A DNA stretch of 36,277 nt from Lentisphaerota bacterium (lineage in GTDB: Bacteria; Verrucomicrobiota; Lentisphaeria; Victivallales; Victivallaceae). Each line of letters starts with the position of its first letter. The first letter of the stretch is position 1. The stretch lies in NCBI GenBank assembly GCA_015061525.1, contig SUWK01000021.1, forward strand, positions 1 to 36,277, given 5' to 3'. The notes under the pieces were generated by a model. That model was not told where the DNA came from. It worked only from the letters and a program-made list of their open reading frames with translations, and did not search any database. The position numbers and the translations under genes were made by a program. This document shows, in pieces, positions 1 through 36,277 of this stretch.

Positions 1-606
1 TTTGTTGCGTCGGCTTTGCTCGCATGGAAATGCTCGCAAAGTTCATTCGCATGCGGACTGCGCGCTCGGCGGCAACCGCCTCGCACCCGTGTGTTGAACA
101 TGCCACAGAGGGCATCAAAAAGAAAAACCACGCGGGTGTTACTCCACTGAGTTTTTTGCAAAGCTTTTTTCCAAAAAAGCGTCGATCAAGCCGCGACAAC
201 GGAGCGGCGCGACAGTTCGCTTTCTTTGCCGAGCTTTCTTTCTCGTGAAAGAAAGCGGAGTGGGGCGAGTGCCGTCGGCACTCTTTCCGGTCGCTCGCGG
301 CTTATTGCTCGTCCTCCGCTCATCCTCGCGACATTTGTCGCATCGGCTTTGCTCGCATGGTTTTGCTCGCAAAGTACATTCGCATGCGGACTGCGCGCTC
401 GGCGGCAACCGCCTCGCACCCGTGTGTTGAACATGCCACGGAGGGCATCAAAAAGAAAAAAACAGCGGGTGTTACTCCACAGGGGTTTTGCAAAGCTTTT
501 TTCCAAAAAAGCGTCGATCAAGCCGCGACAGCGGAGCGGCGCGACAGTTCGCTTTCTTTGCCGAGCTTTCTTTCTCGTGAAAGAAAGCGGATATCGGGAA
601 CAGAGC
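1..606 (-). repeat. Tandem modular hairpin repeat array (left end)
   Basis: No believable gene. Read on the minus strand this is the same repeat as at the right end: a partial unit at 450-606, a complete 333-bp unit at 117-449 and a truncated unit at 1-116, with unit borders at the motif GATGCCCTC (complement at 108-116 and 441-449). Modules in order are M1 (GATGCCCTC to GCAAAGCCG), M2 (GC-rich, with hairpins at 328-341 and 267-283), M3 (CTTTCTTTC hairpin plus GC core) and M4 (T/A-rich, ACGCTTTT...AAAAGC). It begins 15 bp after the minus-strand oxidoreductase gene and may serve as its 3' end. Open frames across it come from a lack of stop codons in repeat sequence, not from coding. Confidence 0.85.
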
Positions 607-13834: not shown

Positions 13835-16418
13835 CGGAATTGACCCGCAAAACGATCTGCCGAATGAGCTGCAAAGTGATGTGTCAAGTGATGTGCAAAG
13901 TGATGTATCTGTCGAAGAGAACGACTCCGCCGTGCTTGCCAAACATAAACAGGGAACTAACGACTACTTCCGGAAAATGATCGACCGGAACTTTCTGGAT
14001 TACGCCAGTTACGTCATCGGTTCCCGCGCCATTCCCGATGTGGATGACGGCTTGAAACCGGTTCAGCGGCGTATCCTCTGGGCTCTCTATCAGGTCTACG
14101 ACGGACGCACGCAGAAAGTTGCCAACATCGTCGGCAACACCATGCACTATCACCCCCACGGTGATGCTTCCATCGGCGACGCGCTGGTGGTGCTTGCCAA
14201 CAAGGGCGGCGTGATCGAAAACCGTTACCGCGACCGGAAAACCGGGCAGGAAAAAGTGGAGTTTCTCAATATCCCGTATTTCATTATGAAGCAGGGAAAC
14301 TTCGGCAACATCCTCACCGGCAGTCCGGCGGCGGCCGGCAGGTACACCGAGTGCGGTTTGACCAAACTCGCTTACGAAACGATGTTCAACAACGACATCA
14401 CCCCCTTTGTCCCCAACTACGACGGACGCAAAGAGGAACCGGTGGTTCTTCCTGCCAAGCTGCCAAGTCTGCTCATGCTCGGCAGCGACGGTATCGCTGT
14501 AGGTATGTCCACCTGCGTGCTGCCGCACAACTTCAATGAACTTATTGATGCCGAGATCGCCGTACTGCAGGGCAGAGCGTTCCAGCTTTATCCCGACTTT
14601 CAGCAGGGCGCGCTGATGGATGTGCGCGAATACGACGACGGCAACGGCAAAGTGATACTCCGAGCCAAAATCGACATCGACGGCAGGGATCTGATCATCC
14701 GCGAAATACCGGCTACCTGTACCTCTGAATCGCTGGTGGCAAGCATCGAACGCGCCGCAGAAAAAAATAAGATCCGCATATCCAGTGTGGATGATTTCAC
14801 CACCGATCATGTGGAGATCCGGATCACCCCCACCCGCGGCTACACCCCGGAACAGACTCTGCAGGGGTTGTACATGTATACGGACTGTTCCATTTCGCTC
14901 TCATCGCGCATCGTGGTCATCTGCGACCGCAAACCGGTGCAAATGAGTGTCTCTGAGGTCTTGAAACGCAACGTGGAAAAGCTGGTCGGCTATATCAAAC
15001 AGGAGTTGGAAATCGACCTTGACCGGCAGAATGAACTGCGCCATGCCAAGACGCTCGCCCAGCTCTTTTTTGAAAACCGCATCTACAAGAAGATCGAGGA
15101 GTGCCGGAGTCAGGAGGAGGAGTATGCCGAGGTCCATGCCGGACTCAAACCTTTCCGCCATCTGCTGCTGCGCGACGTGACCAATGAAGATATCGACAAA
15201 CTTCTGGCTCTGCCGGTTCGCCGTATTGCCCGTTTTGATATTGAGAAAAACCAGCAGGAACTGCGTGAAATAGATGAGAAGATCAAAAAGATCCGGTACA
15301 AACTTTCCCACTTGATCAACTGCACCATCGAAGAACTGACCAAAATAAAAGAAAAGTACGGAGCAAACTTCCCGCGCCGTACTGAAATTGAAAACATTGA
15401 ACAGATCGACCGTAAATCTGCCGCTTTGAACAACATCAAAGTCGGTTGGGACCGCCGCAACGGTTACGCCGGAACTGCGGTCAAAAGTGACGATGTCATC
15501 GTCTGCAATGAGTATGACCGCCTGGTGTGCATTGAAAAATCCGGCAAGTACAAGGTCATACCGATGGTTCCGGAAAAACTTTTCATCGGCAAACTGTACG
15601 ACTTCCGCAAATACGATGCCGCAACGCAGTTCGGAGTGATCTACAAAGAGGTAAAAAGCGGAAAATACTACGGCAAACGTACCAGTATCGGCGGTTTTAT
15701 TCTGGAAAAAGAGTACACTCTCTGCCCGCCGGGATGCAAACTGGAACTGCTCACCCCGCGCGCCGATGCCATCTATCTGTGGAGCGAAGAGGACGGCAGG
15801 GGAAAAGTAACCACCCGGGAAATAAATCTGATGGAGTTCCCCGTGCGTTCACCCAAAGCACGAGGTTTTCTCATCAGCAGTAAATCCATGACCAAAGTGG
15901 TACATAACCGCTATCTGACCGAAGAGGAGATCGCAGCTCTGGTCGTACCGGAAGATCCCGAAGAACCCGATGAAGAAACTCCGGATACTGAAGAAAACGC
16001 AGAAGAAGAAATCATCAGCGTTCAGGAGGAGAAAAAACTCCCGATACCAAAAGGTATTCTGGCGATCGCAGCTGCAGCTAAAGAATCCGCCAAACGCGCA
16101 ATGATCGTCCCCGTTCAGGAACCCGAACCAACAGTTGAAACCGAAACGATAGAAACTGAGCCAGTCGAGGAACCGAAGCCGGTCGAGGAACCCGAGCCGG
16201 TCATTGAACCCGAGCCGGTCGAGGAACCCGAGCCGGTCGAGGAACCCGAGCCAGTCGTTGAAGTAGAGCCGGTCGAGGAAAAGTGGGAACTTTCCGGAGA
16301 TCCCGACGATATGCCGCGCCGCCGCCGTCCCCGCGCCCCCATACCGCAGGTGACTGTGACCAAACCGGCCGTTCAAGACGATGACCTTGGAATAATCCAA
16401 CCGGAATTCGGCTTCTGA
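13827..16418 (+). CDS. parC: DNA topoisomerase IV subunit A (ParC/GyrA family) with repetitive acidic-proline tail
   Basis: An 863-residue DNA-cleaving subunit. The winged-helix region has YVIGSRAIPDVDDGLKPVQR and HPHGDASIGDALV, and the catalytic tyrosine is Tyr173 in AAAGRYTECGL. A coiled-coil tower follows (about residues 380-520), then a shortened C-terminal beta region without a GyrA box, which favours topoisomerase IV. The N-terminus has a short repeat (QSDVSSDVQSDVS), and residues about 765-815 are near-perfect EPEPVEE repeats ending in an Arg-rich patch (PRRRRPRAP). The tail is probably disordered and variable in length. Start overlaps parE by 8 bp. Confidence 0.92.
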   Translation: MSDGIDPQNDLPNELQSDVSSDVQSDVSVEENDSAVLAKHKQGTNDYFRKMIDRNFLDYASYVIGSRAIPDVDDGLKPVQRRILWALYQVYDGRTQKVANIVGNTMHYHPHGDASIGDALVVLANKGGVIENRYRDRKTGQEKVEFLNIPYFIMKQGNFGNILTGSPAAAGRYTECGLTKLAYETMFNNDITPFVPNYDGRKEEPVVLPAKLPSLLMLGSDGIAVGMSTCVLPHNFNELIDAEIAVLQGRAFQLYPDFQQGALMDVREYDDGNGKVILRAKIDIDGRDLIIREIPATCTSESLVASIERAAEKNKIRISSVDDFTTDHVEIRITPTRGYTPEQTLQGLYMYTDCSISLSSRIVVICDRKPVQMSVSEVLKRNVEKLVGYIKQELEIDLDRQNELRHAKTLAQLFFENRIYKKIEECRSQEEEYAEVHAGLKPFRHLLLRDVTNEDIDKLLALPVRRIARFDIEKNQQELREIDEKIKKIRYKLSHLINCTIEELTKIKEKYGANFPRRTEIENIEQIDRKSAALNNIKVGWDRRNGYAGTAVKSDDVIVCNEYDRLVCIEKSGKYKVIPMVPEKLFIGKLYDFRKYDAATQFGVIYKEVKSGKYYGKRTSIGGFILEKEYTLCPPGCKLELLTPRADAIYLWSEEDGRGKVTTREINLMEFPVRSPKARGFLISSKSMTKVVHNRYLTEEEIAALVVPEDPEEPDEETPDTEENAEEEIISVQEEKKLPIPKGILAIAAAAKESAKRAMIVPVQEPEPTVETETIETEPVEEPKPVEEPEPVIEPEPVEEPEPVEEPEPVVEVEPVEEKWELSGDPDDMPRRRRPRAPIPQVTVTKPAVQDDDLGIIQPEFGF

Positions 16419-20937: not shown

Positions 20938-21144
20938 GCCAGCTTTCTTTTGCAAAAAAGAAAGCTGGGCAAAGAAAATGAACTGTCGCGCCGCTCCGTT
21001 GTCGCGGCTTGATCGACGCTTTTGAAAAAAGCTTAGCAAAACCTCAGTGGTGGTTCGGCTCTGGCGGGCTATCGCCCATCCGTACCCATCCGTACCCATC
21101 CGTACCCATCCGTACCCATCCGTACCCATCCGTACCCATCCGTA
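20938..21144 (+). repeat. Left inverted arm of the phage-gene cassette
   Basis: No gene in 20886-21243 beyond this arm and the VOC promoter. It holds modules M3 and M4 of the terminal repeat (13-bp hairpin with a GCAA loop at 20939-20968; GC core at about 20983-21017), then a stretch reading GGTGGTTCGGCTCTGGCGGG, then seven tandem copies of CCCATCCGTA (21075-21144). The same order occurs in reverse complement at 22501-22777. Confidence 0.85.
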
Positions 21145-21243
21145 CCTCCACCCCCGCCCTCCCCCAAAAAAGCCCGCGCGGCATGTTTACAATAGAGCAT
21201 ATATATAGAGAGAGCAATTTTTTACCATTGGAGGGTACACACT

Positions 21244-21984
21244 ATGAGCAAGAAAAAAGAGACCATTATCGTTCACGTCAACCAGCTGGATGCGCTGTTG
21301 GCATTGACTCCGGAAGATATGCAGACGATCGTATCGGCAATGCGGAAGTATGCTTTCGGGAATGAATCAGTTGACATTCCGGAACATCTGCAGTTCGGCT
21401 GGATATTTTTCAAACAGGCAATAGATTACGATTGCAAACGCTACGCAGCAGCCTGCAGTGCAAGGCAGGAAGCCGGCAGAAAGGGCGGAATAGCAAGTCA
21501 GGCAAAACAAGCAAATCAGGCAAAAGAAGCAAAACAAGCCAATAACAATAACAATAACAATAACAATAACAATAACAATAACAAACACAGTAACAATAAC
21601 ACTCCCTCTGATGAAACCCGGGAGGCGGTCATTGTTTTGGAGAAAGAGCAGTTTTACAGTGCCGTGGATGAGATAGTGAAAAGTTATCCGTCCTGCCGTC
21701 CGGCACAGAGAGATAAGACGATAAGTGCCGTTGCGGAAAAATTGGCAGAGGATCAGGATCGACCGGTACCGGAGATACTTGACGAAATAGTTGCAGGAGT
21801 TAAAGCCTACGCATCGGCAGTGGAAACGTGGGAAGAAAAACGCTTTGTCAGTGATCCGGTGAAGTTCATCCGGGAAGGGACGTACAAGTGTGATCCGGCA
21901 GTCTGGGTACGCAAACCGCCGCACTCACCGGCAAAAAACGGTTTTAATCCGATGGATCCGGCAACGTGGAACCGCCCGGAGTAA
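21244..21984 (+). CDS. DUF6291-like phage replication-type protein with poly-Asn tract
   Basis: 246 residues. The N-terminal ~85 residues (LDALLALTPEDMQTIVSAMRKYAFG, FGWIFFKQAIDYDCKRY, RQEAGRKGG) match the pattern of the DUF6291-type domain common in phage and plasmid replication genes. A Gln/Ala/Lys linker follows, then 14 consecutive Asn coded by seven perfect AATAAC units (21541-21582). The C-terminal domain has YPSCRPAQRDKTISAVAEKL and a FVSDPVKFIREGTYKCDP segment typical of primase or helicase-loader accessory proteins. ATG is preceded by GGAGGG. Probably co-transcribed with the next gene. Role in replication is inference from family resemblance. Confidence 0.75.
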   Translation: MSKKKETIIVHVNQLDALLALTPEDMQTIVSAMRKYAFGNESVDIPEHLQFGWIFFKQAIDYDCKRYAAACSARQEAGRKGGIASQAKQANQAKEAKQANNNNNNNNNNNNNNKHSNNNTPSDETREAVIVLEKEQFYSAVDEIVKSYPSCRPAQRDKTISAVAEKLAEDQDRPVPEILDEIVAGVKAYASAVETWEEKRFVSDPVKFIREGTYKCDPAVWVRKPPHSPAKNGFNPMDPATWNRPE

Positions 21985-21996
21985 GGAGGAAAAGTT

Positions 21997-22485
21997 ATGC
22001 AGTGGCAGGAGTTTTATTCAACGTGGCTCGCATTGATCGGCAGGATCGACCGGGAGGTGCTGGGTGTGTGGAACGAATATATTTCAGCGTGTGACCGTGA
22101 TACAGCTCTGGAAGCGGTGAACAGCCTCGCGGAAAAGTACAATCCGGCAAAGGAGAAAGACAGCTTTGTTCTTATGCCCAATTTGTGGCAGTTCCGCAGG
22201 GAGTACGAAAATATCCGGGAGCGGAAACGTCAGCAGAAGAAGAGTTGTGTTTCCTGCGGATTTTGTGAAAATTCCGGAACCGTATACGTTCTGGATACCG
22301 GCAACTATCAGAGCGATGAGTTCCCGGTCGATCCCGGAGTTTACGACGGCAGGCGCTGCTTGTGTGTCGTGCCCTGTCCGCACTGCCGGAAAGACAACTA
22401 CAGCGGTATGGCGGAACTTTCCGACAGGATCATCCGTTTCTGCCGTCCGTTTTCCCGGCGCGATGAACTGCTTATGCCGGGGTGA
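21997..22485 (+). CDS. Cys-rich zinc-finger protein, phage-like
   Basis: 162 residues. The N-terminal half is helical (WQEFYSTWLALIGRIDREVLGVWNEYI; SFVLMPNLWQFRREYE). The C-terminal half has two paired cysteine groups, CVSCGFCENSG and CLCVVPCPHC, which fit a zinc-binding fold. Small proteins of this layout follow replication genes in phages. ATG has AAGGAGG 6-7 nt upstream, 12 bp after the preceding stop. Exact role unknown. With its neighbour it forms the whole content of the cassette bounded by inverted repeat arms. Confidence 0.72.
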   Translation: MQWQEFYSTWLALIGRIDREVLGVWNEYISACDRDTALEAVNSLAEKYNPAKEKDSFVLMPNLWQFRREYENIRERKRQQKKSCVSCGFCENSGTVYVLDTGNYQSDEFPVDPGVYDGRRCLCVVPCPHCRKDNYSGMAELSDRIIRFCRPFSRRDELLMPG

Positions 22486-22500
22486 GCGACAGCCGGTGTA

Positions 22501-22777
22501 CGGATGGGTACGGATGGGTACGGATGAGTACGGATGAGTACGGATGAGTACGGATGGGTACGGATGAGTACGGAGGGCGGCAGCCCGCAGAGCCGAACCA
22601 CCCCACAAAAAAAGAAAAAACCAGCGGGTGTTACTCCACTGAGTTTTTTGCAAAGCTTTTTTTCAAAAAAGCGTCGATCAAGCCGCGACATCGGAGCGGC
22701 GCGACAGTTCATTTTCTTTGCCAAGCTTTCTTTTTTGCAAAAGAAAGCGGCAAAAGAAAAGTAAGGGCTTGCAAAAA
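22501..22777 (-). repeat. Right inverted arm of the phage-gene cassette
   Basis: Reverse complement of the left arm. Seven 10-bp units CGGATG(G/A)GTA (22501-22570), then GGGCGGCAGCCCGCAGAGCCG, then the complement of M4 and M3, with the hairpin near 22728-22749 (loop GCAA on the minus strand) and the core near 22673-22708. It is longer than the left arm because M4 is complete here. Nothing else is seen between 22486 and 22844 except the purB leader. Confidence 0.85.
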
Positions 22778-33706: not shown

Positions 33707-33735
33707 GGCTTGCCTGAACCGGCAAGCCTTTTTTT
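33707..33735 (+). terminator. Intrinsic terminator after rpmE
   Basis: GGCTTGCC (33707-33714), 6-nt loop, GGCAAGCC (33721-33728), then seven T. It lies 13 nt before the prfA start codon. Confidence 0.92.
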
Positions 33736-33748
33736 GGTATTGAACTCT

Positions 33749-34852
33749 ATGACTCCGGCAGACATATCAGACTATGTAGACAAGCTCCGTTCCTCTGCGA
33801 AGGAACTGGAAAGCACCCTCTCTTCGCCGGAAATTTTCAACGACATGTCCCGTTTCCGGCAGTTGAGTCAGCAGTTGAGCAAACTTACTGCTCTTTTTGC
33901 TGATTTTGACCGTTGGCAAAACGCACTGCAGAGCATCAGCTCCGACCGCGAACTGCTCGCGGTGGAAAGCGACAGTGAAATGCGTGCGCTGCTGGAAGAA
34001 GAGATCACCGCCCTTACCGGAGAAACTGAACTTCTGGAAAAGAAGATCCAGCTCTCTCTGCTGCCGCCGGATCCCAACGATGCAAAAAACATCATCGTCG
34101 GCATCAAACCTGCCGCCGGGGGAGATGAAGCGGCACTTTTCGCCGGAGAACTCTTCCGCGCCTACACGCATTTTGCCGAATCGCAGCAGTGGAAAATCGA
34201 GATCCTCGATCAGACAGATACCGATCTCGGCGGAGTGAAAGATGTTTCATTTTCGCTTTCCGGGTGCGATGTTTACAGCAAAATGAAATTTGAAAGCGGC
34301 GTCCACCGCGTTCAGCGTGTCCCCGCCACAGAAGCAGGGGGCAGGATCCATACCTCCACGGTCACAGTCGCGGTCATGCCGGAAGCTGAAGCTGTGGAGT
34401 TGAATATCAAGCCGGAAGAGCTGCGTTTCGATGTGTTCCGTTCCAGCGGCCCGGGCGGTCAGTGCGTCAACACCACCGATTCTGCGGTTCGGGTCACCCA
34501 TATACCCAGCGGATTATCTGTCGCCAGCCAGCAGGAAAAATCCCAGCACCGCAATAAAGAGATCGCCCTGCGGATCCTTTACGCCCGGCTTCTTGAACAC
34601 AAACAGCAGCAGGAGCAGGAAAAACTTGCCGCTGACAAACGTTCACAGGTCGGCACCGGTGATCGCAGTGAACGTATCCGCACCTACAATTTTCCCCAGA
34701 ACCGTGTCACTGACCACCGGTTCAATATCTCATCTTTTGATCTGCCCAAGATCATGGAGGGCGATTTCGGGCTGATCCTTGACCAAATACTGCAGATCAC
34801 CTGCGAACAGCGACTGGCATTTCTGTTTGGCTCTGTTCCCGATATTGGTTGA
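33749..34852 (+). CDS. prfA: Peptide chain release factor 1
   Basis: 367 residues; it ends translation at UAA and UAG. The stop-codon reading motif is Pro192-Ala193-Thr194 (PAT, which marks RF1 rather than RF2), and the peptidyl-release loop is GPGGQ with Gln238. The residue after GGQ is Cys where His, Ser or Gly are common. ATG at 33749 was chosen; upstream is only the T-run of the rpmE terminator, and there is no Shine-Dalgarno. The C-terminus ends unusually (FLFGSVPDIG). The DNA for these last residues shares 16 bp with the junction beside the left repeat array, so the end is probably repeat-derived. Confidence 0.95.
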   Translation: MTPADISDYVDKLRSSAKELESTLSSPEIFNDMSRFRQLSQQLSKLTALFADFDRWQNALQSISSDRELLAVESDSEMRALLEEEITALTGETELLEKKIQLSLLPPDPNDAKNIIVGIKPAAGGDEAALFAGELFRAYTHFAESQQWKIEILDQTDTDLGGVKDVSFSLSGCDVYSKMKFESGVHRVQRVPATEAGGRIHTSTVTVAVMPEAEAVELNIKPEELRFDVFRSSGPGGQCVNTTDSAVRVTHIPSGLSVASQQEKSQHRNKEIALRILYARLLEHKQQQEQEKLAADKRSQVGTGDRSERIRTYNFPQNRVTDHRFNISSFDLPKIMEGDFGLILDQILQITCEQRLAFLFGSVPDIG

Positions 34853-35351
34853 TGCCCTCAGTGGCATGTTCAACGCTCGGGTGCGAGGCGGTTGCCGCCG
34901 AGCGCGCAGTCCGCATGCGAATGTACTTTGCGAGCATTTCCATGCGAGCAAAGCCGCTTTCTTTCGCGAGAAAGAAAGCTTGGCAAAGAAAGCGGATTGT
35001 CGCGCCGCTCCGCTGTCGCGGCTTGATCGACGCTTTTTTGAAAAAAAGCTTTGCAAAAAACTCAGTGGAAGAACGCCCGCTGGATTTTTCTTTCGCAAGA
35101 AAGAAAGCTTGGCAAAGAAAGCGGATTGTCGTGCCGCTCCGCTGTCGCGGCTTGATCGTTTTATTTTTGGCACAGCAGTATGCGGCAATGCCGGGTTTTG
35201 CAAGGAGCAAGCAAAGGAGCATACTATGTATGTGACTGCGCGAGCGACGTCCGCAAGGCGCGGCATTGACCATAATGCAAAGCCAAAAAACGCTTTTGAG
35301 AAAAGCTTGGCAAAACCCAAGTGGAGTAACATCCGCAGGGTTTTTCTTTTT
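34851..35351 (+). repeat. Modular repeat unit R1 (501 bp, variant order)
   Basis: Begins with GATGCCCTC at the prfA stop codon. Module order is M1-M3-M4'-M3-MX-M4: it lacks M2 and has a second M3 hairpin (loops GCGA, then GCAA) plus the 131-bp MX module. No gene is supported in it; long open frames run through on both strands because the repeat has few stop codons. Confidence 0.85.
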
Positions 35352-35811
35352 GATGCCCTCTGTGGCATGTTCAACGCACGGGTGCGAGGCGGTTGCCGCC
35401 GAGCGCGCAGTCCGCATGCGAATGTACTTTGCGAGCATTTCCATGCGAGCAAAGCCGACGCAACAAATGTTGCGAGGATGAGCGGAGGACGAGCAATAAG
35501 CCGCGAGCGACCGGAAAGAGTGCCAAAGGCACTCGCCCCACTCCGCTTTCTTTCGCAAGAAAGAAAGCTTGGCAAAGAAAGTGAACTGTCGCGCCGCTCC
35601 GCTGTCGCGGCTTGATCGTTTTATTTTTGGCACAGCAGTATGCGGCAATGCCGGGTTTTGCAAGGAGCAAGCAAAGGAGCATACTATGTATGTGACTGCG
35701 CGAGCGACGCCCGCAAGGCGCGGCATTGACCATAATGCAAAGCCAAAAAACGCTTTTGAGAAAAGCTTGGCAAAACCCAAGTGGAGTAACATCCGCAGGG
35801 TTTTTCTTTTT
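35352..35811 (+). repeat. Modular repeat unit R2 (460 bp)
   Basis: Order M1-M2-M3-MX-M4. M2 hairpins are at 35460-35473 (GCAACA/TGTTGC) and 35518-35534 (GAGTGCC/GGCACTC, loop AAA). MX is inserted between CTTGATCG and ACGCTTTT. Confidence 0.88.
35619..35749 (+). mobile_element. 131-bp MX insert within the repeat (MITE-like)
   Basis: Present in R1 and R2, cleanly absent from R3 at the same point. Near its ends it has TTTTTGGC and GCCAAAAA in inverted order, with an inner inverted pair CAATGCCG/CGGCATTG. Contains AAAGGAG followed by an ATG, but no supportable gene. No target duplication is evident. Confidence 0.5.
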
Positions 35812-36140
35812 GATGCCCTCAGTGGCATGTTCAACGCTCGGGTGCGAGGCGGTTGCCGCCGAGCGCGCAGTCCGCATGCGAATGTACTTTGCGAGCATTT
35901 CCATGCGAGCAAAGCCGACGCAACAAATGTTGCGAGGATGAGCGGAGGACGAGCAATAAGCCGCGAGCGACCGGAAAGAGTGCCAAAGGCACTCGCCCCA
36001 CTCCGCTTTCTTTCGCGAGAAAGAAAGCTTGGCAAAGAAAGCGGATTGTCGCGCCGCTCCGCTGTCGCGGCTTGATCGACGCTTTTGAGAAAAGCTTGGC
36101 AAAACCCAAGTGGAGTAACATCCGCAGGGTTTTTCTTTTT
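35812..36140 (+). repeat. Modular repeat unit R3 (329 bp, basic form)
   Basis: Order M1-M2-M3-M4 with no insert; closest in length to the complete left unit (333 bp). The M3 hairpin has a GCGA loop; M2 hairpins are at 35920-35933 and 35978-35994. Confidence 0.88.
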
Positions 36141-36277
36141 GATGCCCTCAGTGGCATGTTCAACGCTCGGGTGCGAGGCGGTTGCCGCCGAGCGCGCAGT
36201 CCGCATGCGAATGTACTTTGCGAGCATTTCCATGCGAGCAAAGCCGACGCAACAAATGTTGCGAGGATGAGCGGAGG
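36141..36277 (+). repeat. Modular repeat unit R4 (cut by window end)
   Basis: M1 and the first part of M2, with the GCAACA/TGTTGC hairpin at 36249-36262. The left window end stops in the same module. Confidence 0.85.

Follow-up and report, generated by a model that had tools for sequence, protein, structure and literature searches.

The repeat described here has a multi-branched fold in which the base pairing is conserved and the stem sequence is not. Bacterial high-copy repeats are usually plain palindromes; this one is present in about 100 copies in a single genome, and its fold is as elaborate as that of a large noncoding RNA. The evidence points to an undescribed, structure-recognised element with folded DNA or folded RNA as its working form. 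Our preferred reading, in which we place about as much belief as doubt, is that of a family of non-autonomous mobile repeats, high in copy number, in gut bacteria of the Victivallales type; the conserved single-strand fold would be its body, and a protein would recognise the structure of this fold, most likely in folded DNA. Among the titles and abstract openings covered, none describes such a repeat in Lentisphaerae.

The window, that is the whole stretch of 36,277 nucleotides that was analysed, is contig C47 of a 2.83-Mb genome in 122 contigs, related to Lentisphaeria/Victivallaceae genomes from gut metagenomes. A 22-base pattern from the core of the repeat has 115 matches in this genome at up to three mismatches (control 1). 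Many matches to the core and to the inverted repeat described below lie near contig ends, and the repeat may be the cause of the poor assembly of this genome. Named records hold at least 48 stretches with a 24-base core pattern; among the matches listed, which may not include the own genome, 47 come from metagenome-derived genomes with Lentisphaeria, Lentisphaerae, Victivallaceae or uncultured bacterium in their titles, and the other is from Arthrobacter. The latter (L084) was left out as a chance match, having the 24-base core only and no further feature of the element. A viral origin was rejected, the 22- and 24-base patterns giving 0 matches in viral contigs by exact search.

Within the window, arrays at 1-606 and 34851-36277 consist of five modules, A to E, for the most part in the order C-D-A-B-C (Table 1), and 168-507 is complementary to 35754-36093 (340 nt, 92%). 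Modular copies had been claimed by an earlier note on this DNA; the two arrays are real, but the supposed copies at 20938 and 22501 consist only of C/D hairpins and a 10-bp tandem repeat and are devoid of the core. The right-hand element, said to start at 34851, begins at 34830 with its terminal inverted repeat, which lies within a release-factor gene and provides its last codons and TGA stop. Its first module A is truncated, C following directly. The left element starts a few bases past the stop codon that ends the gene at 613-1875. Each array is cut off by an end of the contig, and the three fold matches listed for the window are without the closing strand of stem P5, scoring 101 bits versus about 124-128 for complete copies. 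Because its own copies are truncated, the window is a good pointer to the element and a poor example of it.

Table 1. Features of the repeat in the window (R1, covariance model of the fold).
Position	Strand	Feature	Remarks
1..588	-	Left array, leftward C-D-A-B-C-D-A-B; fold match 266-422	R1 101.4 bits
587..606	-	Terminal inverted repeat of left element	First 16 bases intact
20942..21146	+	Cassette left arm: C, D(1-35), 10-bp tandem repeat CATCCGTACC	No core
22498..22748	-	Cassette right arm, inverted order (tandem repeat, D, C)	No core
33710..34852	+	Class-I peptide chain release factor gene (PCRF + RF-1 domains)	Insertion at 3' end
34830..34852	+	Terminal inverted repeat, left end of right-hand element	Exact GCTCTGTTCCCGATATTGGTTGA
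34851..34956	+	Module A, 5' half of conserved fold	Core hairpin 34885-34906
34956..35351	+	Accessory hairpin modules C, D, C, E, D	
35352..35544	+	Modules A+B; fold match 35379-35538, truncated in stem P5	R1 101.1 bits
35545..35811	+	Accessory modules C, E, D	
35812..36004	+	Modules A+B; fold match 35839-35998, truncated in stem P5	R1 101.1 bits
36005..36140	+	Accessory modules C and D	
36141..36277	+	Module A and beginning of B	Cut by contig end

The earlier note had also claimed that stems of the repeat stay paired while their sequence changes. Every swap that it named exists and recurs in the stretches that we fetched, about one tenth of the genome. Counted between fixed flanking letters, the first hairpin appears 53 times as GCAACA/TGTTGC, 13 times as GCGACA/TGTCGC and 16 times as GCAACA opposite AGTTGC, a form with a single mispair; a half-change at the swapped pair is absent from all 82. 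Likewise, CTTTCTTTC/GAAAGAAAG occurs 52 times and its T/A version 16 times, with no mixed form among the 68, and the GAGTGCC/GGCACTC stem, said to be kept, is intact in 63 of 65. GNRA loops, described for most copies of the CTTTCTTT hairpin, are indeed present in 45 of 68 on the sense strand (33 GCAA and 12 GCGA, besides 21 ACGA and 2 ACAA) and in none read antisense, but this hairpin belongs to the accessory modules and is not part of the fold shared across genomes. Equal strand use without a GNRA bias had been named as a counter-test; orientation to genes is neutral, and the GNRA bias is that of the accessory hairpin. The proposal of a structured RNA or a structure-recognised DNA rather than decaying junk is supported by strong covariation across the genus and beyond; the covariation check that the note called for was carried out with a covariance model and a home-made phylogeny-aware test, and significant pairs were found. 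Beyond these proposals, the repeat unit turned out to be a mobile element with terminal inverted repeats.

The fold has a multi-branched core of about 165 nt. Hairpin P1 is followed by the long-range helix P2, which encloses hairpins P3 and P4, then by the strip CGAGCANTAAGCCGCGAG and by P5, a variable hairpin that CGC-A-GGC closes. Many copies continue with a purine-rich stretch and then a 3' hairpin that contains an AA/TG internal loop. Downstream of the core, other genomes have the same architecture in different letters. The AA/TG loop was found at 35 of 49 loci (34 of 47 distinct loci), a weak count, since a control loop, AA/GT, which overlaps it by a shift, was found at 31 of 49. Of the 34 genus genomes, 20 have a match to the covariance model R1. 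The own genome has at least 85 copies, all 85 scored candidates matching R1, and in a sample of the phylum the fold occurs in 17 of 288 genomes and 5 of 152 genera, that is in four genera besides its own. At gathering scores Rfam has no match in the window. Among the matches listed for nine element-bearing loci only two tRNAs exceed gathering, and none overlaps the fold, relaxed thresholds included; a known RNA family was rejected for the loci scanned.

Covariation was assessed in two alignments. For A1, 27 segments were aligned with MAFFT, which was given no structure, and the structure was drawn by hand on the same sequences; its rows were picked by core letters and the CCGCGAG..CGCAGGC motif, so that the invariance of those helices is partly selection. 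R1 was built from the hand-drawn A1 structure, and A2, comprising 78 model-aligned matches (69 distinct rows), is fitted to that structure. In A1, 86.0% of cells pair, compared with 33-39% when the 3' partners are slid; covariation is 0.305 versus 0.114 +- 0.008 in shuffles, and double-change cells number 165 versus 63.5 +- 6.2. Two of the five measures do not exceed shuffles, namely double-change pairs (22 versus 21.1) and further pair types (44 versus 52.3). RNAalifold found only 23 pairs in A1 because MAFFT had misplaced the variable hairpins. In A2, double changes occur in 39 of 45 pairs and covariation is 0.532 versus 0.139, values that come from an alignment fitted to the structure. P1 is invariant in A1, which is partly selection, and varies with compensation in A2. 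The long-range helix covaries as well: A1 columns 44-102 and 45-101 are paired in 27 of 27 rows, with three pair types each.

The phylogeny-aware test, of the R-scape type, was written in Python and relied on a tree from FastTree and on 60 null alignments in which each column retains its substitution counts (E<0.05); it covered all column pairs and made no use of the structure. It gave three significant column pairs in A1, two of them in the structure, and 11 in A2, 10 of them in the structure. The remaining pair adjoins P5 and had earlier been left out of the structure. In A1 (132-183) it is C-G in 12 rows, T-A in 8, G-C in 4 and A-A in 3, Watson-Crick in 24 of 27; in A2 (188-255) it is C-G in 24, T-A in 15 and G-C in 11, Watson-Crick in 50 of 63 and unpaired in 13. 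RNase P, the positive control, gave six significant pairs, all structural. Folding energy was more than 2 sd below that of dinucleotide shuffles at 24 of 25 loci chosen by hand from those of A2, and two examples folded as single-stranded DNA gave z values of -4.12 and -2.33.

Complete copies elsewhere in the genome start with GCTCTGTTCCCGATATTGGTTGA and finish with its near-inverse. A 19-base part of this inverted repeat has 177 matches in the genome (96 forward, 81 reverse) at up to three mismatches (control 0). The stretches that we fetched contain 23 complete elements with paired ends, and 11 of these have a length of 397 or 398 bp. Clear A/T-rich target duplications of 8-10 bp (score >=6) flank 10 of the 23, versus 3.6% of mismatched flank pairs; in another 10 of the 23 no target duplication was detected, and three of those begin at contig starts with the same flank. 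For the release-factor gene, loci of 29 relatives were fetched and 25 used, of which one (L220) could not be parsed; in 24 of 24 parsed relatives the gene ends normally, free of the insertion. Copies are also fused head-to-tail with the hairpin repeats C, D and E, which yields the arrays. The inverted repeat is common to other, shorter hairpin elements in the genus, and its pattern occurs in 18 of 34 genus genomes including the own one (up to three mismatches; G019 76, G015 51, G002 23 matches). The ends differ by genome: by eye, copies in G006 finish in short AGAAAAAC..GTTTTTCT repeats, and copies in G031 have no inverted repeats at their ends. Inverted repeats at the ends, with target duplications around about half of the complete elements, look as if a transposase had moved the element in trans. 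No such mobilising transposase was found among the families searched, ISL3-type and Y1. The letters of the inverted repeat suggested what we took to be an ISL3 partner, a candidate dropped when the ISL3-type DDE family gave 0 matches in the own genome. Nor was a recurring neighbour found: 77 neighbouring proteins, 74 of them distinct, match 139 Pfam families, and among the 25 commonest of these families none has more than two members.

The chemistry of the pairs bears on whether the fold works as DNA or as RNA. RNase P of the genus served as yardstick (25 of 30 loci used, RNAalifold structure). Pairing in the element is nearly all Watson-Crick, with 47 G-U and 29 A-C among 2917 cells (G-U 1.6%), versus 287 G-U (11%) and 19 A-C among 2595 cells in RNase P; this control is tilted towards G-U, since RNAalifold takes G-U and penalises A-C, and its rows are more alike than those of the element (identity 81% versus 60%). 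In pairs that are at least 90% paired, the element has 29 G-U and 10 A-C among 1975 cells. A1 alone has 23 G-U and 33 A-C, part of which we ascribe to misalignment. A typical RNA would be expected to have more G-U pairs. Paired bases are near-symmetrical in the element (G 40%, C 39%, A 11%, T 10%) versus G 39%, C 33%, A 11% and T 16% in RNase P, and unpaired positions are purine-rich in both (A 37% and G 33% in the element, A 41% and G 26% in RNase P). Folding favours the element strand in 63 of 69 sequences, but the asymmetry (-6.6 kcal/mol) is only slightly greater than in dinucleotide shuffles (-4.4), is mostly composition and was discarded as a strand signal. Gene contexts with a neighbour on both sides, taken from our own reading-frame calls, number 49 (21 of 88 own-genome clusters and 28 of 51 distinct loci elsewhere); 23 are convergent and 2 divergent, and the codirectional ones divide 13 to 11, which amounts to no orientation preference relative to genes. 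In 55 of 78 own-genome clusters the upstream gene lies on the same strand, but this was dismissed as a sign of strand bias, the two-sided contexts showing avoidance of divergent gaps instead. With G-U rare and gene orientation neutral, we lean towards a folded DNA strand, which, provided that the fold is functional, seems to us somewhat probable; RNA, for which the purine-rich loops speak, is a strong rival and falls not far short of an even chance on the same proviso. The near lack of G-U, measured against RNase P of the genus, makes the element a testable case of structure that is possibly conserved at the level of DNA.

As a full explanation, a structured noncoding RNA, transcribed from transposon-carried copies, with its effect in trans or on the element that bears it (as scaffold or guide, ribozyme-like or protein-sequestering), is the most serious rival, a distinct possibility that we nevertheless do not expect. 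A covarying multi-branched fold with a long-range helix would suit it, as would unpaired positions as purine-rich as those of RNase P, the recurring A-A/U-G internal loop of the 3' hairpin at the loci counted above and the excess of G-U over A-C in well-paired columns; the scarcity of G-U overall, the neutral orientation to genes and the lack of an Rfam match speak against it. Palindromes could also be kept perfect by a mutational process such as template switching or hairpin-templated correction, with no selection for the fold. Correction in one step fits both the almost exclusive Watson-Crick pairing and the absence of half-changed stems in the genome (0/82, 0/68), but a process local to a hairpin would not be expected to make a helix around two hairpins covary; conserved unpaired positions and a conserved architecture across genera also tell against it, and we regard it as improbable.

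Spread of REP-like elements by a Y1 (RAYT/TnpA-REP) transposase would account for high copy number, intergenic position and richness in hairpins. The Y1 motif is HUH. The own genome encodes one Y1-domain protein (L059:1477-1923), which has HIQ at the expected HUH position. Of 12 genus genomes with at least eight fold copies, seven have no match to Y1 (PF01797) and one further genome has only a broken, sub-threshold match, some of these genomes being incomplete; moreover, inverted repeats and 8-10-bp duplications indicate another transposase. Spread by RAYT is thus largely refuted, and we consider it very improbable. Least credible of all are transcription terminators or 3'-end hairpins under host selection that were amplified by chance. 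The copies do tend towards gene 3' ends and nearly avoid divergent gaps (2 of 49), yet they have no preferred orientation, their multi-branched fold far exceeds a terminator, inverted repeats and target duplications are present, and 14 of 34 genus genomes have no fold match.

In the preferred reading of a mobile repeat read as structure, a protein would recognise the structure of the fold and not the sequence of its stems. The recognised form would most likely be folded DNA, on a strand that replication or transposition exposes, and its reading by the protein may help the copying or the spread of the element. A bolder version, which we think rather unlikely, is that of an unrecognised class of folded RNA or single-stranded DNA device, a near-exclusively Watson-Crick covarying multi-branch fold that would travel as a passenger with transposon ends, unrelated from one gut Victivallales genome to another, and promote their spread.

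The element resembles a MITE in being short, mostly intergenic and of high copy number, with terminal inverted repeats, target duplications and no coding capacity seen. Unlike a MITE, its body is a multi-branched fold that covaries across genera, its ends vary by genome and no parent transposase was found for it (ISL3-type 0 matches, Y1 one match in the own genome). The attC site of integrons acts as a folded single DNA strand, its structure being recognised and not its stem sequence. The element shares the conserved structure and variable sequence, but its architecture differs and no gene cassettes are seen with it. BOX elements of Streptococcus pneumoniae are modular, repeated, intergenic and hairpin-forming, as is the present element, whose modules are different and which adds inverted repeats and deep covariation. 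HEARO RNAs are mobile and of high copy number. With the HEARO/IscB-associated RNAs and Acido-Lenti-1 RNA (RF01687) the element has a structured nature in common; unlike them, it has no Rfam match at gathering or relaxed thresholds in the loci scanned and no recurring neighbour family among the commonest 25 of 139 families. Acido-Lenti-1 is given for Acidobacteria and Lentisphaerae, and one RNA is listed for the latter phylum (PMC2864571). As far as partial accounts go, REP/BIME palindromes and REPINs with RAYT are likewise high-copy extragenic hairpin DNA in mosaic arrays, whereas the element differs in its much bigger fold, in its terminal inverted repeats and target duplications, and in the lack of a Y1 match in 7 of 12 high-copy genomes. 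In one such account, REP/RAYT palindromes bear a GTAG or CGTC tag (PMC3733652).

Some minor observations were made along the way. At 20942-22748, a two-gene cassette lies between inverted C/D hairpins and 10-bp tandem repeats. The gene at 21244-21984 is DUF6291 in Pfam and matches phage families, mostly of unknown function; that at 21997-22485 belongs to no PHROG family. Tandem repeats like those of the cassette adjoin D modules elsewhere in the genome (C1, C58, C102). The window contains no tRNA gene; by eye, an array directly follows the apparent 3' end of a tRNA gene at L170 ~1480-1600 (G000 C82:7980-8100). The Y1-like protein adjoins a ParB/KilA-like reading frame, named by eye. A gene resembling gyrase/topoisomerase IV subunit A has an 18-bp tandem repeat (16149-16292), encoding six-residue units, near its C-terminal end. 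Finally, hairpin elements of about 160 bp in L261 (G015) and L280 (G002) have similar inverted repeats and, by eye, flank duplications around a different body, and are candidates for a wider transposon family of the genus.
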